Of a stretch of DNA of 64,000 bases, positions 29,359 to 57,534 are shown in pieces. A model generated the notes under the pieces. It was not told the origin of the DNA. It did no database searches and saw nothing but the letters and a program-made list of their open reading frames with translations. Each line of letters begins with the position of its first letter. Position 1 is the first letter of the stretch. Origin of the DNA: Butyricimonas synergistica DSM 23225 (GTDB lineage Bacteria; Bacteroidota; Bacteroidia; Bacteroidales; Marinifilaceae); contig NZ_KB903360.1 in the NCBI RefSeq assembly GCF_000379665.1, positions 808,175 to 872,174 on the forward strand, read 5' to 3'. The translations under genes and the position numbers were made by a program.

Positions 29359-29922
29359 ATGCCAGGCATGAGTGGATTGGACAGTACATTAATTGCTTTT
29401 ATCCAAGGAGATGAACGTGCATTTCATCATTATTATGTCACATATTATGATGCTTTGTGCTTGTTTGCTACCCGTATCATCAAGGACGAGGAAATTTGTC
29501 GGGATATAGCGCAAAATGTATTTATCAATTTGTGGAAGGCCCGTGGTACGATTGAATCCGAGCTGCACTTAAAGATGTATCTTTATCAATCCATGCGTCA
29601 TCGTTGTATGAACTACCTTAAATCTCTTCAATTAGAAGAAAAATATCGTTATGAGTATCGTTTGTTGGAATCCGAGGAAGATTACCGTAATATGGTTGTA
29701 GAGGAAGAGGTTCATCGTCTTGTTATGGAGGAAATTAATTTGTTGCCGGAAGAGCAGCGAAGAGTAATTCTTTTGCATCTAGAAGGTAAAAGTAATATAG
29801 AAATTGCCGAGGCGATGGAAATTTCCGTGAATACGGTTAAAACTCACAAAGCTCGGGCTCGACAGCAATTAAAAGTGAAGTTAAAAGATCTGTTTTTTGT
29901 GGCTTTAGCCATTGGGGTATAA
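29359..29922 (+). CDS. ECF sigma factor (locus A)
   Basis: The 187-residue protein has region 2 (DERAFHHYYVTYYDALCLFATRI, then DIAQNVFINLWKAR) and a C-terminal region 4 helix-turn-helix (LPEEQRRVILLHLEGKSNIEIAEAMEISVNTVKTHKARA). It belongs to the Bacteroidetes SigW/SigY-like group that pairs with FecR. It should direct RNA polymerase to the promoter of the SusC gene below when FecR releases it. It is 92 nt upstream of fecR and in the same direction. An alternative start at residue 4 is possible. Confidence 0.92.
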   Translation: MPGMSGLDSTLIAFIQGDERAFHHYYVTYYDALCLFATRIIKDEEICRDIAQNVFINLWKARGTIESELHLKMYLYQSMRHRCMNYLKSLQLEEKYRYEYRLLESEEDYRNMVVEEEVHRLVMEEINLLPEEQRRVILLHLEGKSNIEIAEAMEISVNTVKTHKARARQQLKVKLKDLFFVALAIGV

Positions 29923-30014
29923 TTTTTTTTGAAAAAAATAGTATTTCTTGTCATCCTTCCTGGGAACTTCTTTGTATTTATAATAAACAACAGGAAAATT
30001 ATTTGTTGCGTAAT

Positions 30015-31196
30015 ATGAAGGAAGGAACAATACACGAAAATATCGAAAAGCAAATCTTTCAGATAAAAGCTTATTTAGATGGGAAGTTAAGCCAGGAAGA
30101 GAAGGTGGAGTTTGAAAGGTGGATAGAGCGGGATCTAACCCATCAAAGATTGATGGAGAGAATCAAGAATGAACGGGTTTTGGCTGGGAAAATTCGTTTC
30201 TGCGAACGCAATAATCGAGAGGAGGGCTGGAAATACATACAGAAACGGATACATCATTCTTTTTTGTTTCGCAGGATTATTCGTTACGCGGCAGTTGCTG
30301 TTGTCTCGATATCAGTAGGCGCAGCAATTGTTTTTTGGAATAATACACGTCCTGACACGAAGCAGGAATCTTGCGTTGTGCAACAAGAATCGCCTTCTTT
30401 GCAAGGTGGGGCTAAGGTTTATCTGGAACTAGCTTCCGGTGAACACTTTGTGCTAGATAGTACAAAGTGTATTCAGACCCAGATAGACGGCGTCGTTATT
30501 AAAACAGATAAAGTCGGTTCTTTGGTCGTGGATGTACAAGAAAAGGGTAGTACGGGAAACGAGGTAGAATATAATCGTATTGTGGTGCCTAAAACCGGAG
30601 AATATCATTTAGTATTGGCTGACGGAAGTCAAGTATGGGTTAATTCACATTCTGTCATTGAGTTCCCTACTCGTTTCACGAACAAAGAACGTCGGGTGAA
30701 AATTCTTTCGGGAGAAGCCTATTTCGAAGTGGAAAAAGATCCGGGGCATCCTTTCATCGTCGAGGTTCAAAATAAAGAAGTACGGGTATTGGGAACAAGT
30801 TTCAATATAAATTGTTACGAGGAAAAATTTGCAACCACGTTAGTCACCGGAAAAGTAGAAGTTGCCTTGGAAAACAAGACCTATTTGCTGACCCCTTCTA
30901 TGCAAATCAGTATAACAGATGATAGTGTTTCTTTAGCTAAAGTGAACGTGAGGGAATTTATAGCTTGGAAAGACGGCTGGTTCGTGTTCAAGAATCGACG
31001 TTTGGAAGAGGTGCTTATAATTCTTTCTCGCTGGTACAATATTGAAATATTTTATCAAAAAGAAGAATTGAAAAATTTGCATTTCACGGGAAGTATACAG
31101 CGTCATAGTGATGTTGAAGAACTTTTGCAATTTTTGCAGAAAACGGGGTCGGTACGTTTTTCTCTTGATGGACAAACTTTGATCGTATCGGAATAA
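30015..31196 (+). CDS. FecR-family anti-sigma factor (locus A)
   Basis: The start is set at the ATG at 30015 (393 residues); an in-frame TTG four codons earlier is less likely. The protein has a cytoplasmic N-terminal part that should bind the sigma factor. A single membrane helix follows (about residues 90-107, YAAVAVVSISVGAAIVFW). The periplasmic FecR domain (VPKTGEYHLVLADGSQVWVNSHS and GEAYFEVEKDPGHPFIV) precedes a DUF4974-like C-terminal domain. It should pass the SusC STN signal to the sigma factor. It lies between the sigma and SusC genes, and a hairpin separates it from susC. Confidence 0.92.
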   Translation: MKEGTIHENIEKQIFQIKAYLDGKLSQEEKVEFERWIERDLTHQRLMERIKNERVLAGKIRFCERNNREEGWKYIQKRIHHSFLFRRIIRYAAVAVVSISVGAAIVFWNNTRPDTKQESCVVQQESPSLQGGAKVYLELASGEHFVLDSTKCIQTQIDGVVIKTDKVGSLVVDVQEKGSTGNEVEYNRIVVPKTGEYHLVLADGSQVWVNSHSVIEFPTRFTNKERRVKILSGEAYFEVEKDPGHPFIVEVQNKEVRVLGTSFNINCYEEKFATTLVTGKVEVALENKTYLLTPSMQISITDDSVSLAKVNVREFIAWKDGWFVFKNRRLEEVLIILSRWYNIEIFYQKEELKNLHFTGSIQRHSDVEELLQFLQKTGSVRFSLDGQTLIVSE

Positions 31197-31198
31197 CA

Positions 31199-31227
31199 AA
31201 TGCCGAGAATTTGCACTTCCCGGCATT
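31199..31227 (+). terminator. Hairpin between fecR and susC in locus A
   Basis: AATGCCG at 31199-31205 pairs with CGGCATT at 31221-31227, with an extra GAA/TTC pairing inside. It has no T-tract and starts just after the FecR stop, 46 nt before susC. It probably attenuates or separates the regulator and uptake transcripts. Confidence 0.6.
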
Positions 31228-31272
31228 AGCAATAATAAACCAGAGGTTTAACCATTTAATCAAAACAAATGT

Positions 31273-34200
31273 ATGACAAAAAATCGACATTTACGATTTT
31301 TGAGGAATCGTATTTTACAAAAAGTAATTAACATTATGAAATTAACAACTTTATTGTTGCTTGTTAATTTTATGCAAGTAACTGCATCAGCCTATTCTCA
31401 GGAAACCCGAGTAACCTTCTCTGTGAAGGAGTGTAAATTAGAAAAAATTTTTGATTTGCTTGAACAGCAAACGGGCTACTCGTTTATTTACAATCATGAG
31501 CAACTACCATCAACTAAAAGTGTTACGGCTGAATTTAAAAACGAACCGGTTACGTCTATTTTGCAATACTGTTTGCAGGGAACCGGTTTGGATTATGAGT
31601 TCTTGAATCGTACGTTTATCATTAAAAAAAGAACTCCAGACGATGTTAAATCTTTGACCCTTAAAGGGTGGGTGTATGATAGTAAAAAGGCTCCGCTTCC
31701 TGGTGTTACGATTCAATTGGTCGGGACTTCTGTGGGAACAGCTACCGATGTTAACGGTTGGTTTTCCGTGAAGTTACCCTTGTTGAATGGGAAACTAGAA
31801 TTTTCTTTCGTGGGTTATAAAAAACGAAGCGTGGAATTTTCCGAGAAGATGGCTAATGACACGTTGCGTATTGTACTGGAAGAGGAAGTGATGGCTTTGG
31901 ATGAAACTGTTGTTGTTGCTTATGGTACGACCACGAAACGGGAAGCCACAGGTTCGATTTCTGTGGTGAAGGCTGAAGAGTTGCAAGGTATTCCTTCCCC
32001 AAGTATTGCGAATTTGTTGCAGGGGCGGGTTGCAGGGTTGGATATAACGAATATGTCTGGAGCTCCGGGTGCGGGAAATACTTCTGTCGTGATTCGGGGG
32101 TACAATTCGTTGGATCAGGATTTGTATCGTCGTTTTTCTAACCCGTTGTGGGTCGTTGATGGGGTACCGATGAATTCTTTTTCTTCTCCGGTGACAGGTA
32201 CGAATATGTTGGCTGATTTAAATCCGGATATGATAGAGTCGGTTCAGGTGTTGAAAGATGCTTCTGCTGCTTCTATTTATGGTTCACGGGCAGCAAACGG
32301 CGTGATTATCGTGACAACTAAGAAGGGGAAAAAAGGGCAGGATGCGACGTTTTCTGTGAATTTTTCACAGTCTTGGTCAATACTTCCCGAATTACCTCCC
32401 GTGACGATCGGTAAAGGAGAACGGGATTTTCGTAGGTATGCTCAGAAATATCGTAATATGAGAGCTTATCGCGATGAGACCACGAAAATGTGGAAATACC
32501 CGACTTCACACAAAGAGGTTTGGGATCATCGGAATGATGGTGCTCGCTTGGATGCTTATTGGGTACCGAAACCGGATAACCGGATGGACGGGGGCGGTCC
32601 TTTGCAAGATAGTTTGAATTCTTTTTACAATAATTCCACGAATTTTTTTCCAATGTATTTTCACACGGGAAAGGTTACGAATGCTAATATCCAGACTTAT
32701 GCTGGTTCCGAGCGCATGAATTATAGTATAGGTGCGGGATATTATGATGAAACCGGTATTTTGCGGGGCACGGGGTATAATCGTATTGATTTGCAATCTC
32801 AAATGACGGTTCGTCCCGTAGAGAAGTTATCTGTCGATATGCAGTTTAGCGCATCTTTGGCAAACCGGAAGAGAAGCGGTTCTATGGCTAATTCCATAGA
32901 GGTAGTTCCTGGAGATCCTTATGAATTGAGTTCGTTATATCCGGGTGAGGGGACTGCAGTATGGGAGAATGTGTTGGATAAATTGCAAGGTACGGTGGAT
33001 AAAAATCGGAACATTCGTTTACGGGCTAATTTCCGGTTGACCTATAATATTTTGAAGGGGTTAGATTTCTCTACTTCCGGGGCGGCAGATTATGCTATTA
33101 GCCGGAGAAATTTGTTTGAACCCTCCTCGTTGAGTTACAGTGGTTATTCGAAGAGTACTGGTGATCAGGGTACCAATTTAATGGTGTTGAACGAAAACTT
33201 ACTTACGTATAAGTGTAGTTTCAATGAGGAACAACATAGTATGTCATTATTGGCGGGATTATCCTATCAATACGACCAATTGGAAAATAACACGGGATAC
33301 GCTCAGAAATCCCCGAGTGACAAGATCTACTATGCTCCCTCTACGCTTCCTTCTTTAACGGTAGAGGGATACGGTAGTTATGCTAAAACAATCGCCCTAA
33401 AAAATTATTATTCCGATATGCAGGAGAAGGTTTTGCTTTCTTATTTCTTTCGCGGGGAATATAATTATTTGCGGAAGTATTTATTATCCGTGAGTTTTCG
33501 GACGGATGGAAGTTCCACTTTTGGAAAAAACAACAAGTGGGGATTCTTTCCTTCCGTGGCGGGTGCTTGGACATTTTCAGAGGAACCTTTCTTGACTTCT
33601 TTGTCAAATTGGTTGTCGTTCGGTAAATTCCGAGCTAGCTGGGGGCGTTCGGGAATGGATTTCGATTATTGTTACTTAGCACAAGGAATCATGGAAGTAG
33701 GGGCACCTTCCATGGGAAATTCGACTTTGAATCCGGAGTGGAAGGAGGGATTGTATAATGATAATTTGTCGTGGGAGCAAACGGATCAATATGATTTCGG
33801 GTTGGATCTAGATTTTTTCAATTATCGTTTAGGCGTTGTGGTAGATTATTATTATCGCTACACGAATAAAATGTTGTCCAAGTATAATCTTCCTGGTCTT
33901 GGACACATTTCAGGGTTTGCGTCGCAGTGGAGAAATGCGGCATCGTTATCTAACGAGGGGTTGGAACTTTTGGTGAAATACGAGATATTCCGCCGTTCTG
34001 ATTTGTATTGGAAGGTGACGGTCAATGGGGCTCGTAATTGGAACCGTCTTCGTTCCACGACATCCGGTCAGGACTTGGGAACGAAAGTGATTGGACGGAG
34101 TATTAATGAGGTTAAAGTGTTGAAAACGGATGGCTTTGTGGATTATCAGGATGATATTCCTGCTTACTGGCGGGCTGATGGTTACAAGGCTTATATCAGC

Positions 34201-34788
34201 GATAGCGGGTATGCTTCGATTTATTATAAACCGGGAGATTACAAATTCGTGGATATAAATGGTGATGGGCAAATTAGTAGTGATGATGTAGTGTGCGTTG
34301 GGAGTGCTCTTCCTGAATTTTATGGAGGATTGGTCAGTGAGTTCAAGTGGAAGAATTTTGATTTGAATCTTTCTATGGCTTATCAATTGGGACGTTGTAT
34401 AATTAATTTGATGCCGATCAATGCGTTGACGAAAAATCAAGGTCCTCTGTTATATGATGCAAGGAAAGTTACATTCTGGTCGAAACCGGGCGATCGAGCC
34501 GATTACCCGTATGGAGGAAATGGTGTGACGGATGTGGCTAAAGACGTGGAAAAGGTGAATTGGTTGAAGTTGAAAACAGTGACGGTTGGCTACAACCTAC
34601 CGCAGGTATGGATGAAGAAGATCGGATTGAAACAGGTTCGTTTCTTTGCTAGTGGGGAGAATTTGTTGACGTTCACGAATTATTCGGGAATGGATCCAGA
34701 AACGGTAGATATTCGTACTGGAAATGATGGAGGAAGAAACTACCCGTTAGCTCGTAAGTTTACATTAGGTTTAACAGTAAAATTCTAA
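31273..34788 (+). CDS. SusC/RagA TonB-dependent transporter with STN domain (locus A)
   Basis: The 1171-residue outer-membrane protein has a signal sequence in residues 22-43. A STN (secretin/TonB N-terminal) domain spans about residues 47-118 and talks to FecR. A CarboxypepD_reg-like domain follows (about residues 128-205), with TonB box DETVVVAYG at about residues 210-218. Next are the plug (IRGYNSLDQ, VLKDASAASIYGSRAANGVI) and a 22-strand barrel ending in a terminal Phe (TLGLTVKF). It imports large ligands with its SusD partner 4 nt downstream. It is a close paralogue of the locus B protein. Its cargo is not known; the S46 peptidase at the operon end suggests peptides. Confidence 0.95.
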   Translation: MTKNRHLRFLRNRILQKVINIMKLTTLLLLVNFMQVTASAYSQETRVTFSVKECKLEKIFDLLEQQTGYSFIYNHEQLPSTKSVTAEFKNEPVTSILQYCLQGTGLDYEFLNRTFIIKKRTPDDVKSLTLKGWVYDSKKAPLPGVTIQLVGTSVGTATDVNGWFSVKLPLLNGKLEFSFVGYKKRSVEFSEKMANDTLRIVLEEEVMALDETVVVAYGTTTKREATGSISVVKAEELQGIPSPSIANLLQGRVAGLDITNMSGAPGAGNTSVVIRGYNSLDQDLYRRFSNPLWVVDGVPMNSFSSPVTGTNMLADLNPDMIESVQVLKDASAASIYGSRAANGVIIVTTKKGKKGQDATFSVNFSQSWSILPELPPVTIGKGERDFRRYAQKYRNMRAYRDETTKMWKYPTSHKEVWDHRNDGARLDAYWVPKPDNRMDGGGPLQDSLNSFYNNSTNFFPMYFHTGKVTNANIQTYAGSERMNYSIGAGYYDETGILRGTGYNRIDLQSQMTVRPVEKLSVDMQFSASLANRKRSGSMANSIEVVPGDPYELSSLYPGEGTAVWENVLDKLQGTVDKNRNIRLRANFRLTYNILKGLDFSTSGAADYAISRRNLFEPSSLSYSGYSKSTGDQGTNLMVLNENLLTYKCSFNEEQHSMSLLAGLSYQYDQLENNTGYAQKSPSDKIYYAPSTLPSLTVEGYGSYAKTIALKNYYSDMQEKVLLSYFFRGEYNYLRKYLLSVSFRTDGSSTFGKNNKWGFFPSVAGAWTFSEEPFLTSLSNWLSFGKFRASWGRSGMDFDYCYLAQGIMEVGAPSMGNSTLNPEWKEGLYNDNLSWEQTDQYDFGLDLDFFNYRLGVVVDYYYRYTNKMLSKYNLPGLGHISGFASQWRNAASLSNEGLELLVKYEIFRRSDLYWKVTVNGARNWNRLRSTTSGQDLGTKVIGRSINEVKVLKTDGFVDYQDDIPAYWRADGYKAYISDSGYASIYYKPGDYKFVDINGDGQISSDDVVCVGSALPEFYGGLVSEFKWKNFDLNLSMAYQLGRCIINLMPINALTKNQGPLLYDARKVTFWSKPGDRADYPYGGNGVTDVAKDVEKVNWLKLKTVTVGYNLPQVWMKKIGLKQVRFFASGENLLTFTNYSGMDPETVDIRTGNDGGRNYPLARKFTLGLTVKF

Positions 34789-34792
34789 TAAA

Positions 34793-36346
34793 ATGATACA
34801 AAGAATTGCTATTATCTTGTGGTGTTCCCTTGTTTCTTTTGCTTGTAGCGATTTGTTGGACATGGTGCCGGAAAATTCTGTGACTTTTGAAAATGGTTTG
34901 GAAACGGAATTGGATATAGAAAGTTCGTTAAATGGGGTGCAGAGTGTTATAAGAAAAGAGTTTTATGACAATAGTGCATGGGGAATGATCGTGCGAGGAA
35001 TGGTGTGTGATACAACCGATGTCGCTAATGCCGCTCGTAATTTTGAATATAGTGATGTAGTCAGAAATCCTTGGGGCGATCGTTATGAAGTAATTGCCGG
35101 GGCGAATGTGGTGCTCTATTTTTTAGATGGCATTGAAATGAAACAAGAACGCAAGGATTATTACCGAGGGTCGGCTCTTTTCTATAAAGCGGTGGCTTAT
35201 TTGGATTTGATTTATTTCTGGGGAGATTGTGTGTTGGTGGAAGAGGAGATTCCTTTGGAATCGAGAGAGAAATCTTACTGGACGACAGTGGCGGATCACG
35301 CTATTGAATTGGCAGAGGAGGCTGTTCGTTTGTTACCGGATTTTGACAAGGTGACGGATTCGCAAGGAAATGCGACCACATATAAATCGGTTCCTTGTAA
35401 AGGAGCGGCTAATGCAGTTTTAGCTTATCTTGCTGCATGGAAAGCCGGATGTAAATGGATGGCACAACCTTCCGAGCGGAATTATGATGAGGCTAAATTG
35501 TGGGAAAAGGCGGAACAGGCTTGCACGGATATCATTGGCTCCGAGCAAGGAGAAGCAACGGGCTGCTATCGTTTGGCGGCAAATCCGGAAAAGGTGTGTA
35601 CGCAAGTGTTGGTGGGTGGAAGTGCTGAAAGTATATATGAAAGTGTGTATGTTGGTTTCTGGGATGATTTTGGGCCATCTTGGAAAAATTTGGTGGACCA
35701 AGCTCCTCTTTTCCAGACGTGGCCTATGTTGAATTATGGAAAACGAGAAGTAAAAGAGGCGGTAATTCGCGTGAAGACGGAGACTGTTCGAAAAATGTAT
35801 GAAGAGGGTGATTTGCGACGGGATGCTTATTTTTATGCTTTTGAAGAGATGGCTTCTCCCGATTCCGTGGAAATCACGGGTGGATTTGCTTACCCATACA
35901 AGTGGAGAGAGGTTGCGGTGGAAACAAGTGGACCGAAAATCGGGGAATATCTTCATATTAATCAAAATTATATTTGGTGGCGATTGGCTGATATTTATTT
36001 ATTGCGTGCGGAGTGTCGAGCTCGTTTGAACAAGAAAGAGTTAGCGATTGCCGATATTAATGTGGTTCGGGATCGAGCCCAGGCGAAACGTTATAATGCT
36101 TCAGAGTATGCGGGAAATTTGCAAATGGCTGTTTTCAAAGAGCGAGAGAAAGAGCTGATTTTCGAAGGGTATCGTTATTTGGATATCGTGCGTAATAATT
36201 ACGTGCGGAGTATGTTAGGGAGTGGGTATCGCACTCTTTCTGAACAAGATTATATTGATGGGGCTTTATTTTGGGCGTTAGGAACATTTGCATTTTATAA
36301 TAATCCCAAAATGCGTCAGAATACCTATTGGAAGAGATTCGAATAA
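34793..36346 (+). CDS. SusD/RagB lipoprotein (locus A)
   Basis: SusD proteins cap the SusC pore and bind ligand at the cell surface. The 517-residue protein has a lipoprotein signal (MIQRIAIILWCSLVSFAC, lipid cysteine at residue 18). It has typical SusD helices, including a TPR-like repeat (YYRGSALFYKAVAYLDLIYFWGD). The C-terminal part has the conserved YIWWRLADIYLLRAECRARL and KEREKELIFEGYRYLDIVRNN segments. It starts 4 nt after the SusC stop, so the two are translationally close. It pairs with the locus B SusD by gene order and similarity. Confidence 0.94.
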   Translation: MIQRIAIILWCSLVSFACSDLLDMVPENSVTFENGLETELDIESSLNGVQSVIRKEFYDNSAWGMIVRGMVCDTTDVANAARNFEYSDVVRNPWGDRYEVIAGANVVLYFLDGIEMKQERKDYYRGSALFYKAVAYLDLIYFWGDCVLVEEEIPLESREKSYWTTVADHAIELAEEAVRLLPDFDKVTDSQGNATTYKSVPCKGAANAVLAYLAAWKAGCKWMAQPSERNYDEAKLWEKAEQACTDIIGSEQGEATGCYRLAANPEKVCTQVLVGGSAESIYESVYVGFWDDFGPSWKNLVDQAPLFQTWPMLNYGKREVKEAVIRVKTETVRKMYEEGDLRRDAYFYAFEEMASPDSVEITGGFAYPYKWREVAVETSGPKIGEYLHINQNYIWWRLADIYLLRAECRARLNKKELAIADINVVRDRAQAKRYNASEYAGNLQMAVFKEREKELIFEGYRYLDIVRNNYVRSMLGSGYRTLSEQDYIDGALFWALGTFAFYNNPKMRQNTYWKRFE

Positions 36347-36372
36347 AACGGTTGAATTTAAAACGAAAGATC

Positions 36373-36996
36373 ATGAAAAAAATATTATTGGGATGCATGG
36401 TATTGTTGATATTTGTGGCGTGCACGAAACAGACGGTGTATGATACTGGAATAAGTAGCCCTTATTACGAAGGGTCGATTATGGACTATTTAAGAAGCAA
36501 TGATTACGAGTGGGGATATACTGTACAATTGATAGAACAAGCAGGTTTAAGTGATTTGTTCGAGGGGCGAGTGGACTCCTTGCCTGAAATCACGTTTTTG
36601 GGTATACCAAGCATGACCGTGGAACGGTATATGTATGAAAAAAGGTATGATAGTATTCAACAAATCGATCCTGATATTGCTAAATTTATGGTGCTTCAAC
36701 ACGTGACCAAAGGAAAAATACTGAAAAAAGATGTTGCTTACCGCAATCGGGAATATAAAGCAAATGACCCTTTGCAGGATGGTTGCACGGATATTACCAT
36801 GTTGCAGGGGAATAAGGTGCGTTTTTGGCGGGATAAATCAGATTATGCCGGAGTGCCAGATGCCGGAGCCGAGACGATGAGTTTATGGTCATTGCAAACC
36901 AATTTGCAAATTCCGATGTCCTCTCCGGACATTCAACCCGAGAATGGAGTGGTACATGCTTTAAACTATAACTATGTATTGAGTTTTATACTTTAA
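36373..36996 (+). CDS. Fasciclin-like (FAS1) lipoprotein, locus A
   Basis: The start is taken at the ATG at 36373, giving 207 residues with a lipoprotein signal (MKKILLGCMVLLIFVAC). An upstream in-frame ATG at 36328 overlaps the SusD end. The mature part has FAS1 features: LIEQAGLSDLF, PEITFLGIPS, FMVLQHVTKG, and the C-terminal NGVVHALNYNYVLSF. FAS1 domains are adhesion or ligand-binding folds. Its paralogue in locus B at 56474 shares these segments and occupies the same gene position. It likely sits on the cell surface near the SusCD complex. The role is inferred from context. Confidence 0.78.
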   Translation: MKKILLGCMVLLIFVACTKQTVYDTGISSPYYEGSIMDYLRSNDYEWGYTVQLIEQAGLSDLFEGRVDSLPEITFLGIPSMTVERYMYEKRYDSIQQIDPDIAKFMVLQHVTKGKILKKDVAYRNREYKANDPLQDGCTDITMLQGNKVRFWRDKSDYAGVPDAGAETMSLWSLQTNLQIPMSSPDIQPENGVVHALNYNYVLSFIL

Positions 36997-37007
36997 AATG
37001 GGGAATA

Positions 37008-37562
37008 ATGAGAAATTTATTATACAGTTTGATTATGGTATGCGTGACCTTATCGTGTCACGATATTGCGGAAGGGTATTTGTTCGTGAATGATGCCGGA
37101 TATGATCCTGATTCTTTGTTGGTGAGAACGGATTTGGATTCGGGCATGGTGAAAGGACCGAACCCGAGTTGGGAATATTTTGTATCGGAATTTTATGATT
37201 GGGGACATAAATCGATGACATGGGAGCAGTGGGTGGAAATGTTACATGAAATGGGCGAGTACGAGGAGATAGATGTGCCCGGTAAAGATTACGATCGTGC
37301 GCATTTCGATATACCGTGGGTAAGTACGGCTATTCAGGGCGTGCAAGGGACGAATCCGATTTATGTCTCTATTGCGAAAGTGACGACCGATAAGGGTGAC
37401 GTGGACAAATTCATGGAATACGTGACGGTTCGGGGGGATGGGACTTTTACCGTACCCTTTAAGCATGAGATTCCTTCTGGACGTTACAAGGTGTCTTTGC
37501 ATTTCGAGGGACCAGGACACTCGGCAGATTTTGAGAATATTTTTACGATTATCATACAATAG
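37008..37562 (+). CDS. Small SusCD-associated lipoprotein (locus A)
   Basis: The 184-residue protein has a lipoprotein signal (MRNLLYSLIMVCVTLSC, lipid cysteine at residue 17). It resembles the 141-residue protein of locus B: both have DIAEGYL or DITVGYL after the cysteine and YxPDSLxVxxxLD. Both also have an IPWxSTxIxGVQGTxP block and a C-terminal beta strand pattern PxGRYxxSLxxE. The locus A copy has an insert of about 45 residues (about residues 47-90). I do not recognise the family; it may be a surface accessory protein of the SusCD complex. It lies 11 nt after the FAS1 gene. Confidence 0.65.
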   Translation: MRNLLYSLIMVCVTLSCHDIAEGYLFVNDAGYDPDSLLVRTDLDSGMVKGPNPSWEYFVSEFYDWGHKSMTWEQWVEMLHEMGEYEEIDVPGKDYDRAHFDIPWVSTAIQGVQGTNPIYVSIAKVTTDKGDVDKFMEYVTVRGDGTFTVPFKHEIPSGRYKVSLHFEGPGHSADFENIFTIIIQ

Positions 37563-37568
37563 TTGCAG

Positions 37569-39731: not shown

Positions 39732-39760
39732 AGTGAGTTACAAAGTAATCGTAGTGACAA

Positions 39761-49241: not shown

Positions 49242-49313
49242 AAAAGTTTCAGAATTGGGATATGAAAGGGGTAATCTTGGCTGCCCTTTTCTGTTTGTTG
49301 CTGTCGGACTGAA

Positions 49314-49823
49314 CTACTCTATCTCGTAGTTACCGGAATTGAAATATTCCCGGAGTTTACGGATGGCGGCGTATTTTAATGTTTTTATCGTGTTCACGGA
49401 GATACCCATGGTTTGTGCGATCTCTTTGTTCTCGTAACCGGACAATACAAGGCGCATGATACGAGCGCTTTGGAGTGGTAACGTCTTGATTGCGTTAATT
49501 AAAGCTTGGTTTGTGTCTTCCGCTATCAACAGGTTTAGGACTTGAGGGTCTTCTTGTTCCTCAATTTCTAGTTTGGAATACCTTTGGTTTTCCCGTTGTA
49601 ATCCTCTCAAGTAATTCAAGGATTCATTTTTTACCATGGTATAAAGAAAGTTATTTATAGTGTTGATTTCTTGTTGTTTATGCTGATTTTCCCAAAATTT
49701 GATAATGACTTCCTGCGCGATGTCTTTAGCAACTTCCGAGGAACCGACAAAACGAACGGCAACGGCACACAAAGCAGCATAGTGTTCTTTTATGAATGTT
49801 TCTAATTCATCGTTTTTCCTCAT
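49314..49823 (-). CDS. ECF sigma factor (locus B), divergent from its FecR
   Basis: The ATG at 49821-49823 gives 169 residues; a further 10 N-terminal residues are possible from an upstream start. Region 2 (LCAVAVRFVGSSEVAKDIAQEVIIKFWEN) and region 4 (LPLQSARIMRLVLSGYENKEIAQTMGISVNTIKTLK) are complete. It faces away from the FecR gene of locus B, unlike loci A and C. Sigma and anti-sigma are therefore transcribed from opposite promoters in the roughly 230-bp gap. It should control the SusC promoter at 51314-51368. Confidence 0.92.
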   Translation of the reverse strand: MRKNDELETFIKEHYAALCAVAVRFVGSSEVAKDIAQEVIIKFWENQHKQQEINTINNFLYTMVKNESLNYLRGLQRENQRYSKLEIEEQEDPQVLNLLIAEDTNQALINAIKTLPLQSARIMRLVLSGYENKEIAQTMGISVNTIKTLKYAAIRKLREYFNSGNYEIE

Positions 49824-50057
49824 CTTAATAATCGTTCGTTTTTTAATATTCAAAAATAGCTTTATTGCTTTTTCATATTCATTATTAATTTATTATAAAA
49901 GCCAAATTGCGGCTATATACTAGTATTCTCGAATTGTTTTAAACGAAGGTAAAATAATATCATGTTGCAAGTTTAAAAATAATTTTTGAATTTTTCTTGT
50001 TTTCATTCATCCCGTCTCTCTTTTTGTGGTGTCTATATAGAAACAAGTGGAAAAATA

Positions 50058-51281
50058 ATGACATACAATAAAGCACAGATACTGGCACAAATAATCATTC
50101 GGGTAAAGTTGGGTGCGGCTTCCGAGGAAGAAAGGGAAGTCTTGGGGGCATGGCTGGACGAGTGTGAAGAAAATCGCCAGTTGTATAAAAATATTATTCG
50201 TTGGAAATGTATCGGGGAACGCTTGAGGTTGGAGGATGAAATCAACCAGACAACTGATTTCAAACGGGTACACCGAGTCGTTTCGAGGCGTTTGGCGTAC
50301 AAGAATTCGGGACAAAAGCGATGGGTTCGAGTGGCGTGGACTTCCGGCGTTGCGGCTGTATGTCTATATGGGATGTTCTTTATTTGGAATTTAATGCGGC
50401 AACCGGATATGCCGTTAGTCTCAAGTGAACAACGGAAAGTGCGAGAAACGGAAATATCTCCAAAACAGGGAAAAGTGATGCTGGTACTTGAAGACGGTCG
50501 GCAAATCGGTTTGGAACGTGATGCTTCCGATAGTATAAAATTGGCACAAATAACGATTGTTGAGACTGGAAAAAGTTTGCAGTACAAGCCGATTGTGGAT
50601 TCCATTTCCCCCTCGCAAGAGGTGATTCATAAAATATACACGACAATCGGGGGCGACTATTTACTAGTATTAAGTGACGGAACACGGGTTTGGTTGAATG
50701 CCGAGACTGAATTGGAATATCCCGCGCAATTCGTGGGGAAAGAAAGGAAGGTAAAATTGACAGGAGAGGCTTATTTTGAAGTGATGCCCGATGCGGAAAG
50801 ACCGTTTGTTGTGGAAACGGGCAATATGCAGACTCGTGTCCTTGGGACCTCTTTTAATATAAACGCTTACACGAACGAAGGAGCTATTTACACCACCTTG
50901 TTGTCCGGTAAGGTTGAGGTCAGTTTGGCGGATTGTATGGTGGACGTGGCTCCCGTGGTATTGGAACCGGGAATGCAATCTTACTGGAAGCGAGGTGCTA
51001 GTGATTTTGAGTTGAGAGAAGTGGACTTGGATAACGTGATCGCTTGGCGCTATGGCGTTTTCGTGTTTAATGAGGATTGTCTTGACGTGGTGACCCGGGT
51101 TCTGTCTCGGTGGTATGGCGTGCGATTCGTGGAGGACGGTGGTGGTATAGGACGTCATACTTTTAGCGGGAAAATAAGTAAGGATGAAAAATTGGAATCC
51201 ATTTTGAAGATATTGACCTTGGCGGGAGGTCCTGAATTTAAACGAGAGGGGGATATAGTACATGTAATTGAGAGAAAATAA
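50058..51281 (+). CDS. FecR-family anti-sigma factor (locus B)
   Basis: The ATG at 50058 gives 407 residues; an upstream in-frame codon at 49986 would add 24 residues unlike FecR. The protein has a cytoplasmic sigma-binding region and one membrane helix (about residues 97-116, VAWTSGVAAVCLYGMFFIWN). The periplasmic FecR core contains YTTIGGDYLLVLSDGTRVWLNAE and GEAYFEVMPDAERPFVVE. A C-terminal DUF4974-like domain follows (FNEDCLDVVTRVLSRWYGVRF). It should keep the divergent sigma factor inactive until the SusC STN domain signals. A hairpin follows its stop codon. Confidence 0.93.
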   Translation: MTYNKAQILAQIIIRVKLGAASEEEREVLGAWLDECEENRQLYKNIIRWKCIGERLRLEDEINQTTDFKRVHRVVSRRLAYKNSGQKRWVRVAWTSGVAAVCLYGMFFIWNLMRQPDMPLVSSEQRKVRETEISPKQGKVMLVLEDGRQIGLERDASDSIKLAQITIVETGKSLQYKPIVDSISPSQEVIHKIYTTIGGDYLLVLSDGTRVWLNAETELEYPAQFVGKERKVKLTGEAYFEVMPDAERPFVVETGNMQTRVLGTSFNINAYTNEGAIYTTLLSGKVEVSLADCMVDVAPVVLEPGMQSYWKRGASDFELREVDLDNVIAWRYGVFVFNEDCLDVVTRVLSRWYGVRFVEDGGGIGRHTFSGKISKDEKLESILKILTLAGGPEFKREGDIVHVIERK

Positions 51282-51284
51282 GAA

Positions 51285-51313
51285 ACCGGGAACGCATTGC
51301 AGGCGTTCCCGGT
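51285..51313 (+). terminator. Strong hairpin between fecR and susC in locus B
   Basis: A perfect 11-bp GC-rich stem (51285-51295 with 51303-51313) with a 7-nt loop starts 3 nt after the FecR stop. It has no T-tract. It most likely attenuates or processes readthrough, leaving susC to its own sigma-dependent promoter in 51314-51368. Confidence 0.7.
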
Positions 51314-51368
51314 GATATCATCCTTGTTGATAGCAAGGAACGTGTTTAATTAAAAACAAAACAAAGCT

Positions 51369-54300
51369 ATGAAAAAAAACTACAAGACAAAAAAGTTTTG
51401 TAGACTTTCGATCAAATGTAGTATGTTGTTATGCAGTATTTTGATACTGGGAATAGCATCTACATTTACGGGTTCGGTAGTCTACGGGCAAAAAGCGGTT
51501 CAGCGATTTCCTTTGAAACTCGAAAGCGTAAGCGTCTTGGATGCACTTCGGGAAATAAACCGTTTGAGTGGCAACTCGGTCATTTTCAAGAAAGAGGAAG
51601 TCGAAAAGGAGACCAAACGAGTCACCGTGGATTTGAAAGACGTAATCACGCTGGAAGCTGTCAGGGCTTGTCTGGCGGGAACTAAGTTATCATGCACGGA
51701 GAGTGACGGCAAAGTGGTAGTTATCCCGGAAAAGGAGCAGAAAGCGAAGATTGTGTCGGGAATTATATCCGATGCCTTGGGACAGCCTTTGCCAGGAGCT
51801 ACGGTTGTCGTGAAGGGAACGGCGTCTAGAATCGGTACTAGTGCGAACGTGAACGGGGAGTACCAGATTGTGGTCCCCGCAGGCACGAGTGTCCTAGTCT
51901 ATTCTTTTATTGGTTACAAATCGAAAGAAGTCGATATCAAAGAACAGACGAAAATCAACGTGACGCTGGAGGAGGATGTGAAGAACGTAGACGAAGTCGT
52001 GGTGGTAGCCTACGGGACGCAGAATAAGCGGGACGTACTCGGGGCGATGTCCACGGTGAATGCCGATGACATCAAGGATATTCCCTCTCCGTCACTTGCT
52101 AATCTTTTGCAAGGACGGGTTGCCGGGATGAGTGTTATCAACATGACGGGAGCTCCCGGGGGCGGAGGTACTTCCATTTCCATTCGTGGGTTCAATAGTT
52201 TGTCGGTAGAGGCAGCACAACGATTCAGCAACCCGCTGTGGGTAATTGACGGGGTTCCTATGTATAGTTTTACCTCTCCGGTCAGCGGTTTGAATACTTT
52301 GGCGGAAATTGATCCCAAGGACATCGAGTCCGTGCAAGTGTTGAAAGATGCGGCGTCTGCATCAATTTACGGGTCGCGTGCGGCAAATGGGGTGATTTTG
52401 GTGACGACTAAAAAAGGACGTTTCAATCAAAAGGCGAAGGTGAGCGTAAATGTGTCACAGACTTGGATATTTAACCCCTCTTTGCCGGATCTTATGGGAG
52501 GAAACCGGGAGCGTTATCACCGCATGGAAGCCTTGAGAAATTACCAGGAAGCCGGTTTTAGTGATGAGCAAAACCGTTACGTGTACGTGGGGTCATATAA
52601 AGAGGCTTATTTGCGGGACATCATGTATGATTATTTTTGGGGTAAGGGAAATGGTGCGGGAGTTCCCCTGTATCAAGATAGCTTGAATAAATTTTACAAC
52701 AATTCCACGAACCTTTTTGATTATTATTTCCGTACGGCACGGGTGACGGATGCGAGCCTGCAATTGACCGGGGGGGCGGAACGTGTGACTTATAACTTCG
52801 GTTTGGGCTACTATTCGGAAACGGGAGTGTTGAAAGGTACAGGATTCAATCGTATGAAGTTGATTTCGAATATCACCGTGAAACCGATGGATAAGATGGA
52901 TGCTAATTTGCGTTTTTACTTGGCGTATACGGATCGTAGCCGTTCTTCCGAGGAGATGAACACGTATTCGTTTAACACGGGAACCGACTTGGAGCAAATA
53001 CCTAAAGAGTTATTGGTGACTTCAACGCTTTATCCGGGTGAGGGTACACCTGCTTTTGACGAGGCTACCAAGCGTTTCCGGGGCACCAAGGAGAAAAATG
53101 ATTCTTATCGTGCAAGAGCTAGTTTTGACGCCAGTTATGAGTTTATCAAAGGTTTGTCTTTTAAAACGTCTGTTGCGTTGGATTATTCTCAGCAAAACGT
53201 GAATATCTTTTTGCCTTCAAACTTGAACGATTACAACGAATCGTATTCTAGCGGGCAGATTGAACGTTATATGATGCTGTTGAATGAAAATATGTTCACT
53301 TACAAGCGTTCTTTTGCTGAAAATCATAACGTGGATTTTCTGGTGGGATTGTCCTTGCAATCGGATGAAACGAATAAAGTCGGGGGGTATGGTTACAAGG
53401 CTCCCAGTGATTTGATTCATTATGTGCCTTGGTACGGGGGAGCATACGATGTGACAAGCGATCGTCAGTTGAAGGAATTCTTGTCAAAACGGGAAAAAAG
53501 CACGATGATTGGTGTATTCGGTCGTTTGAATTATAATTATATGCAGAAATATTTGCTTTCCTTCAGTTTGAGGCGTGACGGAAGTTCCAAGTTTGGTGAG
53601 GATGTGCGTTGGGCAACTTTCCCTGCTTATGCTGTCGGTTATGCTTTTTCCGAAGAACCGTTTATGGATTGGGCTGAAAATGTGTTGGATTATGCGAAAA
53701 TCCGGCTTAGTTACGGGAAATCGGGAAAACAATTTTCCCAGCCTTATATCGCTTTAGGATTGTTGGAACCTGCGGCGTCGTTCCTTGGTAATCCGACAGT
53801 CAACCCGGAGTGGAATGAAGGATTGTTCAATCCCACGTTGACGTGGGAGGAAACAGATCAGTATGATTTCGGATTGGATCTCGATTTATTTAATTATAGG
53901 TTGAACGTGGTGCTGGATTATTACTATCGTTATACCGATAAATTGTTGTACAATGTGACTTTGCCGGGGAACTATTCGGGATATATTAAACAGTGGCAGA
54001 ACGCTTATGCGATTTCCAACGAGGGGATCGAGTTGCAAATCAAGTGGGATATTTTACGTCGGGACAACCTGAAATGGGACATGACTTTCAATATAGCTCG
54101 TAACTGGAATCGCTTGGAAAAGAGTCTTAACGGGGTGGATTTCCAGACGTACGGGGATGCCGGTTATTTTGACAGTAACGTGAGTGTTATTGGCAAGCCG
54201 CTAAATGGTCTTTACGTGTATAAAGATAAAGGGTATTATAATAGCGATGAGGAGGTGCCTTATATTTACGAGGACGGGCGTAAGATTTATTTACGCGGTG

Positions 54301-54938
54301 ATAGTTATCGTCAATATTATCGCGCGGGTGATAGGATTTTGATGGATATGGATGGTAATGGTTCGGTGGCAACTTCATGGCCTTTGCTGGAAGATAGGGT
54401 ATACGCGGGTTCGCCTCTGCCGAAAGCTAGTGGCGGTATTATTTCGACGTTAAACTGGAAGGGTTTTGACGTGAATATGTTGTTTTCTTACGTGCTTGGT
54501 CGTCATATCTTGAATGCCGGGAAAGGTGCTTCCGTGGGAACGAGTTTGGGATTGACATTGGATGATTTGACCAAGCCTGTTTTTGCTGATCTGGATAAAG
54601 TTACTTTCTGGCAGAAACCGGGAGACAAGGCTGATTTCCCCATGAATCGCTTGGAATCCGGGTTGGGTAACTTCACGACGATACTCAGTTCTAACGTGGA
54701 GAATGTGAGTTACTTGAAATTGAAAACTTTGACAATCGGGTACACTTTGCCCCAAAAATGGACAAGGTGTGCCGGAATGGAAAGTGCGCGGGTATTTATT
54801 TCCGGGGAGAATTTGTTTACGATTACCAATTACACGGGACCTGACCCAGAATCTGTTGACGTGGTTACCGGTGTGGATAATTTTGGCAATTACCCGCTTA
54901 GTACGCGTGTCACGTTAGGTTTAACCCTTAATTTCTGA
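51369..54938 (+). CDS. SusC/RagA TonB-dependent transporter with STN domain (locus B)
   Basis: The 1189-residue protein has a long signal region (about residues 16-42). A STN domain covers about residues 47-120 (FPLKLESVSVLDALREINRLSG). A carboxypeptidase-regulatory-like domain covers about residues 128-200, with TonB box VDEVVVVAYG. Plug and barrel follow and end in TLGLTLNF. Barrel segments such as EETDQYDFGLDLDLFNYRLNVVLDYYYRY are almost the same as in the locus A transporter, so the two are paralogues. Its stop codon overlaps the SusD start by one base (TGATG). Cargo unknown. Confidence 0.95.
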   Translation: MKKNYKTKKFCRLSIKCSMLLCSILILGIASTFTGSVVYGQKAVQRFPLKLESVSVLDALREINRLSGNSVIFKKEEVEKETKRVTVDLKDVITLEAVRACLAGTKLSCTESDGKVVVIPEKEQKAKIVSGIISDALGQPLPGATVVVKGTASRIGTSANVNGEYQIVVPAGTSVLVYSFIGYKSKEVDIKEQTKINVTLEEDVKNVDEVVVVAYGTQNKRDVLGAMSTVNADDIKDIPSPSLANLLQGRVAGMSVINMTGAPGGGGTSISIRGFNSLSVEAAQRFSNPLWVIDGVPMYSFTSPVSGLNTLAEIDPKDIESVQVLKDAASASIYGSRAANGVILVTTKKGRFNQKAKVSVNVSQTWIFNPSLPDLMGGNRERYHRMEALRNYQEAGFSDEQNRYVYVGSYKEAYLRDIMYDYFWGKGNGAGVPLYQDSLNKFYNNSTNLFDYYFRTARVTDASLQLTGGAERVTYNFGLGYYSETGVLKGTGFNRMKLISNITVKPMDKMDANLRFYLAYTDRSRSSEEMNTYSFNTGTDLEQIPKELLVTSTLYPGEGTPAFDEATKRFRGTKEKNDSYRARASFDASYEFIKGLSFKTSVALDYSQQNVNIFLPSNLNDYNESYSSGQIERYMMLLNENMFTYKRSFAENHNVDFLVGLSLQSDETNKVGGYGYKAPSDLIHYVPWYGGAYDVTSDRQLKEFLSKREKSTMIGVFGRLNYNYMQKYLLSFSLRRDGSSKFGEDVRWATFPAYAVGYAFSEEPFMDWAENVLDYAKIRLSYGKSGKQFSQPYIALGLLEPAASFLGNPTVNPEWNEGLFNPTLTWEETDQYDFGLDLDLFNYRLNVVLDYYYRYTDKLLYNVTLPGNYSGYIKQWQNAYAISNEGIELQIKWDILRRDNLKWDMTFNIARNWNRLEKSLNGVDFQTYGDAGYFDSNVSVIGKPLNGLYVYKDKGYYNSDEEVPYIYEDGRKIYLRGDSYRQYYRAGDRILMDMDGNGSVATSWPLLEDRVYAGSPLPKASGGIISTLNWKGFDVNMLFSYVLGRHILNAGKGASVGTSLGLTLDDLTKPVFADLDKVTFWQKPGDKADFPMNRLESGLGNFTTILSSNVENVSYLKLKTLTIGYTLPQKWTRCAGMESARVFISGENLFTITNYTGPDPESVDVVTGVDNFGNYPLSTRVTLGLTLNF

Positions 54939-56461
54939 TGTTTATGAAAAGGAATATATTACTGCTTGTACTTCTTGCGGCGATCGTTTTTGGCTGTGAG
55001 GATTTTTTGACCGAAGAGCCTGAAATTGCGGTAACTAACAATAATTTTTGGAAAAACGAGAAGGATGTCGAGAGTGCCGTGTACGGGTTGCATTCGGTGT
55101 TTCGCACGGTGTTTGGTGATGTGGTTGTGTTGTACAGGGATAGAGGATTGCCTTGCGATTATTTGAATGCGGTATGGAAATATCCTTCCGAAAATCAACC
55201 CAGCTACATGTGGAACGCCAGTAATCCGGCGATTTCATGGGCAAATGAATACAAAGTGATAGCTCAAGCGAATCTGGTGATAGATAATATTGACAGGGCA
55301 AATTTACCGAAAGAGAGACATAATTATTATCTTGGGCAGGCTTATTGTATTCGAGCTTATACTTATTTCTATATATTGAGAGCGTGGGGAGATGCTCCTC
55401 TCGTGAAAGAATCGGTGGACGTGGGTGAAAAAGCCCGCACCTCGTGGCAGGAATTGGCTGATTTTGCTATTAAGGATTTGAAATCGGCTGCGGAAATGTT
55501 ACCGAAGGCTAGGGATTTGTATGATGCCAATAAGGTGAAAGTGACCAGTAAACAAGTGCCATCCAGAGGTACTGCTCACGCTATATTGGCACATTTGTAC
55601 GCGTGGAAAGCGGCATTGAATAACGAGCCGGAATTGAACACGTTGAGTATAGCCGAGGCGGATTCTGTGATTAAGCATGGTGGTTATGTTTTGGCAAAGA
55701 ACCCGAAGGAGGTTTGTGACGTGGTGATGTTGGGAAATAGTGACGAGGGGATTTTCGAGGTAGATTATCAAAATACGCCGGGTGATTTGAAAACTTCGGG
55801 ATCTTTCATCGCCGGGGCTTGTCAGAAATGGCCGATACAGCCTTTGACGACTCCTGCTACACGGCGTTCAATCATGCGTATCAATAACACTACGGTTATG
55901 GAAATGTACAAGGACAAGTCGGACGAACGGCGGGATGAATATTTTTACAAGTTGGACTCTATGGCAGGTGTGGCAACATCGGTGACTCAAGGAGCCGCTT
56001 ATATCAGCAAGTGGCGGGGCGTGGTGCTTAATGTGGGGGGATCTAGTGATGGAACCTTGAAGTCGTACGAGGATAACGAGATTTTAATTCGTTTGGCGGA
56101 TATCATCCTGCTTCGTGCCGAGGTGAAAGCCAAGACAGGTGATACTCCTGGGGCTATTGCCGATTTGAACACGATTCGTGACCGGGCGGGAGCTCCCTTG
56201 TATTCCAGTGCCGAGGGTGATTTGCAGGAGGCAATTGCCAAGGAACGGGATAAGGAGTTATTTCTGGAAACGGGTATTCGTTATTACGACATCATCCGGA
56301 ACGGTACTTTCCGGGAAAAACTAAGGGGTAAATACAAGACTCTGACCGAGCAGGACGTGGCGGAGGGTGCTTGCTATCTGCCCGTGGGGAACGGTGCCTT
56401 CACGAACAATACCCTGATGCGGCAAACAATATACTGGAAACGGAATGGATATGCTTATTAA
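54938..56461 (+). CDS. SusD/RagB lipoprotein (locus B)
   Basis: The 507-residue lipoprotein starts at an ATG overlapping the SusC stop, or at the ATG two codons later (54944). The lipid cysteine is in the signal MKRNILLLVLLAAIVFGC. Standard SusD features are present: an N-terminal TPR-like helical region (YYLGQAYCIRAYTYFYILRAWGD) and C-terminal blocks (ILIRLADIILLRAEVKAKTG, KERDKELFLETGIRYYDIIRNG). It forms the surface lid of the SusC pore above. It matches the locus A SusD in gene position. Confidence 0.94.
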   Translation: MFMKRNILLLVLLAAIVFGCEDFLTEEPEIAVTNNNFWKNEKDVESAVYGLHSVFRTVFGDVVVLYRDRGLPCDYLNAVWKYPSENQPSYMWNASNPAISWANEYKVIAQANLVIDNIDRANLPKERHNYYLGQAYCIRAYTYFYILRAWGDAPLVKESVDVGEKARTSWQELADFAIKDLKSAAEMLPKARDLYDANKVKVTSKQVPSRGTAHAILAHLYAWKAALNNEPELNTLSIAEADSVIKHGGYVLAKNPKEVCDVVMLGNSDEGIFEVDYQNTPGDLKTSGSFIAGACQKWPIQPLTTPATRRSIMRINNTTVMEMYKDKSDERRDEYFYKLDSMAGVATSVTQGAAYISKWRGVVLNVGGSSDGTLKSYEDNEILIRLADIILLRAEVKAKTGDTPGAIADLNTIRDRAGAPLYSSAEGDLQEAIAKERDKELFLETGIRYYDIIRNGTFREKLRGKYKTLTEQDVAEGACYLPVGNGAFTNNTLMRQTIYWKRNGYAY

Positions 56462-56473
56462 AAATGCAAGATT

Positions 56474-57097
56474 ATGAAACTACGATATTTAATGATTCTA
56501 TTTATATTCAGCTTTGGTGCGTGTGATAATGATTATTTCCACGATACCGGACTGGCAAACGGGCGGCACGACTGCACCGTGTGGGAATACCTGCATAAAG
56601 ATTCCTATAACTGGGATTCGACCATTTTGGTTATCGAGCGTGCGGGACTGGTGGATTTGTTTGACGGGAAAGACCCGGCGTATCCGGAGATCACGTTTTT
56701 CGGTCCGACGAACTTCTCTATCATGCAATTTATGTATAAAACTGTGGATAGCAATGACGAGATGCTGTACAACCGGATAGAGGACATCCCTGCGGATATG
56801 TGCCGGAAAATGATTCTGTGTCACGTCCTTCCCAAGAAAATGATGAAGGAGGAATTCGATTATGAAGTGAAGGGAACCCTCGAGGGTGGAACCTATATCA
56901 ATGCTATATCTGGCACGAAGTTACGTGTATTTCGGGCGAAATCCTCTTACATGGGTATTGCTGACATCGGGGCGGAATCCTTGGGGTTACATGCGTTGGA
57001 GACCGGTTTCCTCGTGGGAATCGCTTCTGCCGACATTGAAATGAACAACGGGGTCGTACACTCCTTGAGTTACACGTATCAATTTTCAGAACTTTAA
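56474..57097 (+). CDS. Fasciclin-like (FAS1) lipoprotein, locus B
   Basis: The 207-residue lipoprotein (signal MKLRYLMILFIFSFGAC, lipid cysteine at residue 17) is the counterpart of the locus A protein of the same length. Shared blocks include EYLHKDSYNWD against DYLRSNDYEWG, VIERAGLVDLFDG against LIEQAGLSDLFEG, PEITFFG against PEITFLG, and NNGVVHSLSY against ENGVVHALNY. The pattern is FAS1-like. The gene lies 12 nt after susD. Binding partner is unknown; it is likely displayed on the cell surface with SusCD. Confidence 0.78.
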   Translation: MKLRYLMILFIFSFGACDNDYFHDTGLANGRHDCTVWEYLHKDSYNWDSTILVIERAGLVDLFDGKDPAYPEITFFGPTNFSIMQFMYKTVDSNDEMLYNRIEDIPADMCRKMILCHVLPKKMMKEEFDYEVKGTLEGGTYINAISGTKLRVFRAKSSYMGIADIGAESLGLHALETGFLVGIASADIEMNNGVVHSLSYTYQFSEL

Positions 57098-57108
57098 TAA
57101 TTTCCAGG

Positions 57109-57534
57109 ATGAAAAATATATGTAGAATAATAATATTATTGGCTTTCGTGAGCGTGTCGGCAATCTGTTGTCAGGATATCACGGTCGGTTATCTGATGAC
57201 AACCAATGCTGCTTATACGCCGGATTCGTTGGTAGTGAAAGCCGTGTTAGACCCGGAAGACGATGCGCACCAGATCAAATTCGAGATCCCTTGGCAATCG
57301 ACTTCTATCGAGGGAGTGCAGGGAACTTTCCCCATGGTCTATTCCATTAAGAGTATCACTTGTGATAACGGGCACCCGGAAGCGGCTTCGCAATTCACAG
57401 TGGCTCGCAAGGGCGTGATCGAGTTGCCGTGGAACCACACGGTGCCTCCCGGTCGTTATGTGATCTCGTTGGAAGTTTCTAACGAGGGATATACCCGTCT
57501 ACTGGATTCCGTCTTCACTGTTATTGTGAAATAG
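57109..57534 (+). CDS. Small SusCD-associated lipoprotein (locus B)
   Basis: The 141-residue protein has a signal peptide MKNICRIIILLAFVSVSAICC with candidate lipid cysteines at residues 20-21. Downstream sequence CQDITVGYL, YTPDSLVVKAVLDPEDD, IPWQSTSIEGVQGTFP and PPGRYVISLEVS matches the locus A protein but lacks its central insert. The family is not recognised. It is the last gene of locus B before a terminator, 11 nt after the FAS1 gene, mirroring locus A up to the S46 gene. Confidence 0.65.
   Translation: MKNICRIIILLAFVSVSAICCQDITVGYLMTTNAAYTPDSLVVKAVLDPEDDAHQIKFEIPWQSTSIEGVQGTFPMVYSIKSITCDNGHPEAASQFTVARKGVIELPWNHTVPPGRYVISLEVSNEGYTRLLDSVFTVIVK

Follow-up and report, generated by a model that had tools for sequence, protein, structure and literature searches.

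What would two SusCD operons import if neither encodes an enzyme for glycans and both carry the same unusual pair of accessory lipoproteins? SusCD systems are generally taken to import glycans, and the question is raised by a 64,000-nucleotide stretch of Butyricimonas synergistica DSM 23225 (contig NZ_KB903360.1, positions 808,175 to 872,174), here called the window, which comes from a genome of 4.77 Mb. Within it, locus A (29359-39731) and locus B (49314-57534) each hold genes for an extracytoplasmic function (ECF) sigma factor, a FecR regulator, SusC, SusD, a FAS1-like lipoprotein and a small lipoprotein (SLP), with an S46 dipeptidyl-peptidase (DPP) gene at the end of locus A. Every gene is open where the initial annotation had placed it (Table 1), and the matched domains bear out the gene order it described. 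Pfam and NCBIfam scans gave no glycan-active enzyme in locus A or B, so the absence of glycoside hydrolases (GH) noted at the outset stands. Genome-wide, at least 56 SusC (56 of 145 candidates scored) contrast with one GH2 and one GH3 match, these being the only two glycosidase families searched.

Our reading, which we consider fairly probable, is that A and B are SusCD importers with FAS1 and SLP as cargo-catching partners, the cargo of A being oligopeptides and that of B probably peptidic as well. The machine is of a known kind; the accessory pair is unusual and apparently unstudied, and the loci belong to a large lineage-specific expansion.

A SusCD subfamily with two linked lipoproteins

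Labels such as L024 denote loci and labels such as G003 denote genomes, G000 being the window's own. Using the FAS1 protein of locus B as query, 16 intact copies were found in the genome, itself included, and in all 16 SusC and SusD precede the FAS1 gene while an SLP gene comes after it. A and B had been taken for a duplicated six-gene system, a picture that gives way to one of 16 genomic paralogous loci. The closest SusC within the genome is that of L024 for A (68%) and that of L017 for B (60%), and since the nearest relative of each lies elsewhere, A and B are old paralogues. A SusD tree built on 101 loci places A together with L071 of G003, a locus that likewise has an S46 gene, and puts B in a group with L098 (G005) and L053 (G002). 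These separate clades and the nearest paralogues rule out A and B as a duplicate pair.

Linkage was surveyed in the window's own genome and in 38 relatives; of these 39 genomes, 13 matched the SLP profile and 20 the FAS1 profile. With split matches merged, there are 102 adjacent FAS1-SLP pairs in 12 genomes, accounting for 102/112 FAS1 and 102/105 SLP matches. Ten FAS1 matches remain without a partner, all of them weak (best E 1.7e-13), as do three SLP matches, namely a broken copy, a match in G002 and a weak one. An orphan SLP copy at G000:C1:1714074-1714331 has two in-frame TAG stops and no adjoining FAS1 match. SusC and SusD lie upstream of FAS1-SLP in 102/102 pairs, which upholds the earlier proposal, made with co-occurrence as its check, that the two lipoproteins are SusCD partners.

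The four proteins have also diverged together. L078, a FAS1 locus of G003 whose SusC is split into two open reading frames (ORFs), was left out of the distance, tree and STN tests, leaving 101 loci; it is possible that this locus is broken or misassembled. Pairwise distances correlate at 0.902 for SusC-SusD, 0.837 for SusC-FAS1, 0.758 for SusC-SLP, 0.860 for SusD-FAS1, 0.783 for SusD-SLP and 0.755 for FAS1-SLP, compared with a maximum of 0.115 in 500 shuffles per pair. A lipobox-like cysteine is present in 102/102 FAS1, SLP and SusD proteins by a crude test. Judged by sequence, SusCD appears to have dedicated subunits in FAS1 and SLP. FAS1 proteins are described as contacting hosts and surfaces in other organisms (PMC6032426), and FAS1 and SLP could on that ground be host-contact or matrix proteins merely sharing an operon with SusCD; the fixed gene order, the co-divergence with SusC and SusD and the position of every pair behind SusC-SusD speak against this, and we think it highly improbable.

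In a family-level set that includes the own genome, 22 of 56 genomes gave a match to the SLP profile, some of them weak, and in a 395-genome spread of the phylum the own genome alone did so; as up to eight candidates per genome were scored in the phylum-wide SLP and FAS1 searches, the counts from these are minimum values. On a contig of Butyricimonas sp. Marseille-P3923 there is an SLP copy 91% identical to that of locus B.

Regulatory genes follow a pattern of their own. Among the four genes upstream, FecR is found in 89/102 loci and a sigma gene in 66/102, and by alignment the STN region of SusC is present in 89/89 loci with FecR and 0/12 without. Pfam called STN on the SusC of A; that of B was not called at E <= 0.001, and its STN region is assigned from the alignment. 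Fec-type systems are TonB-dependent and signal via FecR to an ECF sigma factor, and STN occurring only with FecR is the pattern expected of such signalling. The arrival of cargo would thus pass from the STN domain of SusC to FecR and on to the ECF sigma factor, switching the operon on.

Evidence on the cargo

One pointer to peptides is the S46 peptidase of locus A. It aligns with PF10459 end to end (1-698 of 698, 727.7 bits), keeps the three catalytic motifs (Table 1), and both it and its G003 orthologue have a glycine at the position of Arg673 in PgDPP11. A glycine there is reported to mark a DPP7-type P1 preference (PMC8041751), and from this residue we predict the same preference for the locus A enzyme. 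The glycine fits the label DPP7-like given to it initially, although the protein misses the NCBIfam Dpp7 equivalog NF053519 (703.2 bits, cut-off over 1200) and its best solved matches are DPP11 chains. The genome holds four S46; that of A and the SusCD-linked S46 of G003 are mutually closest (67%, Shimodaira-Hasegawa-like approximate likelihood ratio test (SH-aLRT) support 100), apart from the genome's other three, and together are sister (SH-aLRT 93) to an S46 copy found in all six genus genomes. In locus A, this dedicated periplasmic enzyme would release dipeptides from the imported oligopeptides. Locus B would be a related importer whose cargo differs but is probably peptidic too, with its enzymes encoded elsewhere.

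Genes downstream of the 102 loci were surveyed on the same strand in steps of <= 130 bp, which gave a thioredoxin-like gene in 30 loci, an M16 peptidase in 13, a PdaC-domain protein in seven, an S46 in two and a met-zincin in one. Fifteen loci had 25 unlabelled downstream genes, 20 of which were scanned (five short ORFs were left out); these include two TldD-like pairs, two TlpA-like proteins, TIG, BACON and DUF proteins and others, with no glycosidase among the 20 of 25 scanned. Peptidase genes at operon distance are thus found in 18/102 loci (M16 13, S46 2, met-zincin 1, TldD-like pairs 2). HxxEH is kept in 14/14 M16 proteins within 220 bp, and WCGPC in 23 of the 30 downstream thioredoxins.

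With that said, several observations weigh against peptide cargo. For 58 of the 102 loci, B included, there is no downstream gene within 130 bp, and so most loci give no enzyme evidence; a few of them (L042, L067 and L112) have thioredoxin or M16 genes farther downstream. S46 is linked at just two loci, and at the second, in G003, the glycine is present while two of three motif patterns are matched. Nine large neighbours past operon distance or on the other strand were scanned and gave one glycosidase, a LacZ-type beta-galactosidase (G000:C2:430991-431842) that is the sole GH2 match and is found 162 bp beyond the L021 SLP gene, convergent to it on the opposite strand. The SLP itself weakly resembles the Ig-like repeats of glycan-binding BT4661: a profile of 68 SLPs reaches E 7.3e-6 over the whole BT_4661 chain, a value built from four weak repeats on the same part of the SLP, and PF16319, the BT4661-like surface glycan binding family, is weakly matched by 2/68 SLPs (best E 0.0027).

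Relatives of FAS1 outside the family add to these points. At E <= 1e-6 they occur in at least 12 of 394 other phylum genomes (16 matches), with SusC-SusD directly before FAS1 in 12 of 16, the exceptions being L196, L199, L201 and L202. Twenty neighbouring proteins of these loci were scanned. In L194 a GH20 and a glucosamine-6-phosphate isomerase-type gene are nearby, and FAS1 is fused to CBM96 and a cadherin-like domain (L194:9256-10695); L197 has a GH20, L200 a weak GH16, L198 an MGH1-like glycosidase domain and L192 a sodium:solute symporter/N-acetylneuraminate epimerase protein. L191 has an S9 peptidase, DUF5007 or DUF5008 proteins are present in L188, L190, L191 and L198, and the protein after FAS1 weakly matches the SLP profile in L191 (5.2e-5) and L195 (4e-4). 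Glycan enzymes at homologous loci, together with a response to glycans, had been named beforehand as a finding that would speak against the proposal, and the enzymes do occur at distant homologues (L194, L197, L200). Since the neighbours outside the family differ and include glycan-type ones, the FAS1 slot is a general SusCD accessory that does not point to peptides, and we reject the use of FAS1 as a marker for them.

From these data it could be argued that glycans are the cargo of the FAS1-SLP SusCD loci, perhaps in the form of glycopeptides or of sugars from host glycoproteins, with FAS1 and SLP acting as surface glycan-binding proteins (SGBPs) and the enzymes encoded elsewhere or supplied by neighbours. 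The GH20, GH16 and CBM96 associations, the BT4661 likeness, the many loci with nothing downstream and the GH2 beside L021 all fit such a scheme. It sits poorly with the lack of glycosidases among the 20 of 25 unlabelled downstream genes scanned, the single GH2 and GH3 matches of the genome (the two families searched) and the nameable linked enzymes being peptidases and thioredoxin-like proteins, and we regard it as rather unlikely. We also think it improbable that the loci serve a mixture of unrelated cargoes (peptides, glycans, cofactors, metal complexes) around a FAS1-SLP collar that is structural and without bearing on cargo. The variety of enzymes near the FAS1 slot across the phylum would suit that idea, as would the frequent changes of downstream genes on the SusD tree (10 for thioredoxin, 8 for M16), but the recognisable enzymes within the family are mostly of two kinds, peptidases and thioredoxin-like proteins.

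A control set bears on how much these enzymes can say. Of the 116 genes downstream of the genome's 40 non-FAS1 SusC loci, 113 were scanned, and they matched 40 families. No glycosidase is among the 25 commonest of these 40, which do include met-zincin (8), aspartyl protease (5), S9 (3), S8 (3) and families of thioredoxin type (up to 18). Because non-FAS1 loci have peptidases too, peptidase-rich SusCD loci are a trait of the organism and not of the FAS1 subtype alone. This is a further point against peptide cargo, as peptidases and thioredoxins may mark the organism rather than the subtype, and it weakens the absence of glycosidases as evidence specific to the FAS1 subtype. Nine loci of the genome (L127-L134 and L136) have in common a SusD of some 650 aa and, after it, two further proteins of 431-578 aa. 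Nine of the 113 control genes match DUF4959 and nine match DUF4998, probably the genes for these proteins.

Peptide cargo is the best, if unproven, reading of the loci. Uptake of peptides or proteins, as suggested initially, is most likely for A, where the S46 motifs, the DPP7-type glycine and the lineage agree; for B, which has no enzyme, the case is weaker and uptake is likely by kinship with the lineage alone. At least one of the two operons probably imports peptides.

The accessory lipoproteins beside known systems

Against PF02469 (cut-off 22 bits) the FAS1 protein of B scores 27.0 and that of A 13.9, and 10 of the 16 members of the genome's FAS1 set match at E <= 0.01. Two stretches are conserved in the FAS1 alignment, with the consensus sequences ITFFGPTNHSI and NGVVHAL, and we take them to be the H1 and H2 boxes. 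Two conserved stretches are also described for FAS1 domains in general (PMC6032426).

No Pfam family covers the SLP in a Pfam scan, and hhalign comparison showed no relation between SLP and FAS1. The mature SLP profile (56 of 69 SLP representatives) aligns to DUF5007-type (PF16398) proteins with Prob 60 and P 8.5e-5, compared with P 0.41-0.69 for three other lipoprotein profiles. An earlier comparison with signal peptides included gave Prob 94.8; as signal peptides by themselves gave Prob 52.6 against FAS1, the mature-domain comparison alone was used. PF16398 is not among the Pfam matches shown for the SLPs scanned. Like the SLP, DUF5007 proteins stand beside SusC-SusD-FAS1, after FAS1 in L190, L191 and L198 and before SusC in L188; unlike these proteins of about 325-370 aa, the SLP is mostly one domain. 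The Bacteroides thetaiotaomicron genes BT0269-75, with SusD and DUF5007 members, are reported as lowered under iron depletion (PMC10434189).

The size of the SLP varies through an insert in one loop, with 57 short, 30 middle and 14 long proteins (n=101). Examples of long SLPs are found in L027, L042, L049, L063, L066, L091, L092, L101, L112 and L125, and the long SLP of L104 was excluded from one SLP alignment. Some of the 68 scanned SLPs match coiled-coil-type Pfam families, which the loop insert may explain. AlphaFold models from three-row alignments were poor, with a mean predicted local distance difference test (pLDDT) score of 54.5 for the SLP and 45.2 for FAS1. A fold search with the poor SLP model, to which we give little weight, found no match at E <= 0.001, the best being FnIII, MD-1 and similar sandwiches. 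Two accessory lipoproteins of L148 had no convincing solved relative.

Three known systems are useful for comparison. RagAB of Porphyromonas gingivalis, to which the loci are alike in being a SusCD-type TonB-dependent pair in an organism using S46 dipeptidyl-peptidases (DPP7/DPP11), is not known to have FAS1 or SLP partners or S46 genes within its operon; the SusC of A matches solved RagA. RagAB is described as a known oligopeptide SusCD (PMC11817032).

The levan and dextran utilisomes of B. thetaiotaomicron share with A and B four outer-membrane components, two being extra lipoproteins. Those extras are a glycanase and an SGBP, whereas A and B have FAS1 and SLP and no glycanase. The best solved match of SusC A is 8aa4, a 'SusC homolog' that is one of the utilisome entries. 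BT2261-2264-type SusCD also has two small accessory lipoproteins, and BT2264 (5fq6) is among the SusC A matches; no chain of the BT2261-2264 complex entries was matched by FAS1 or SLP in sequence. Utilisomes are described as holding SusC, SusD and two further lipoproteins in a stable complex (PMC7618045), and for this reason we read FAS1 and SLP as lip-bound catching subunits.

Both loci are predicted to encode TonB-dependent, RagAB-like outer-membrane importers. By this analogy, FAS1 and an SLP of inferred Ig/FnIII-like fold are most likely bound at the SusC lip, capturing cargo for the SusD lid. They would occupy the place that SGBP lipoproteins and surface glycanases have in glycan utilisomes. 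A wider possibility, which we put forward tentatively, is a protein counterpart of the glycan utilisome in gut Bacteroidota. There a fixed FAS1-SLP lip collar would catch disulfide-bonded host or dietary polypeptides and SusCD would import them. In the periplasm, dedicated proteins, both thioredoxin-like ones and peptidases (M16, S46, TldD-like, zincin), would reduce and cut them, and each of the sixteen diverged copies of the one genome would handle a different polypeptide class.

The searches made of the open-access literature gave no functional description of the FAS1-SLP-SusCD arrangement, as the initial annotation had supposed, and the subfamily of 102 loci in 12 genomes brings together two linked, apparently unstudied lipoproteins. 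If the cargo is peptide, the surface subunits that serve protein uptake in gut commensals could be named, and shifts of SusCD specificity between sugars and peptides would become directly testable.

Gene layout and the rest of the window

The features of both loci are collected in Table 1.

Table 1. Genes of loci A and B in window coordinates, with the matches on which each assignment is based.
Feature	Position	Strand	Basis
Locus A ECF sigma factor	29359..29922	+	Pfam Sigma70_r4_2 8.2e-16, Sigma70_r2 9.7e-8
Locus A FecR anti-sigma regulator	30003..31196	+	PF04773 8.6e-18, PF16344 3.7e-21
Locus A SusC/RagA TonB-dependent barrel, STN, CarbopepD_reg and plug domains	31273..34788	+	TIGR04056 749.5 bits; STN 3.7e-10, Plug 1.7e-22
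Locus A SusD lid lipoprotein	34793..36346	+	PF07980 2e-18, PF14322 9.5e-11
Locus A FAS1-like lipoprotein, 207 aa from ATG	36373..36996	+	Alignment with 15 paralogues; PF02469 alone E 0.065, below cut-off
Locus A SLP, 184 aa, loop insert of ~45 aa	37008..37562	+	SLP alignment; no Pfam match
Locus A S46 dipeptidyl-peptidase, N-terminal signal sequence (read from sequence)	37563..39731	+	PF10459 2.4e-218; TNHHCG, DTDNW and GNSGS motifs; Gly at DPP11 Arg673 position
Locus B ECF sigma factor, divergent	49314..49853	-	Sigma70_r2 2.6e-12, Sigma70_r4_2 8e-10
Locus B FecR	49986..51281	+	PF04773 5.1e-18, PF16344 6.3e-15
Locus B SusC/RagA barrel	51369..54938	+	TIGR04056 767.1 bits; STN region by alignment
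Locus B SusD	54938..56461	+	PF14322 5.7e-21, PF07980 4.4e-20
Locus B FAS1-like lipoprotein, 207 aa	56474..57097	+	PF02469 5.9e-6, 27.0 bits, cut-off 22
Locus B SLP, 141 aa	57109..57534	+	SLP alignment; no Pfam family above its cut-off

Both SusC proteins pass the TIGR04056 cut-off of 368.25 bits, and the adjacent SusD of each locus has PF07980 and PF14322 above their cut-offs. Genes of locus A are closely spaced, with gaps of 4 bp between SusC and SusD, 11 bp between FAS1 and SLP and 0 bp between SLP and S46. The FAS1 gene of A has a longer alternative ORF from a TTG at 36328, and an alternative start of the S46 gene at the ATG at 37569 is possible. In the SLP alignment, the block common to the two proteins reads IPWVSTAIQGVQGT in locus A and IPWQSTSIEGVQGT in locus B.

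Directly after locus B (window 58015-64000) a third SusCD locus begins with a sigma gene, FecR and a SusC with STN, and runs on in L142 with SusD, a 290-aa protein and then a met-zincin-type peptidase. Between loci A and B, a gene at 46329-49241 of the window encodes a protein of 970 aa that carries a Schlafen AlbA_2 domain in its C-terminal part.

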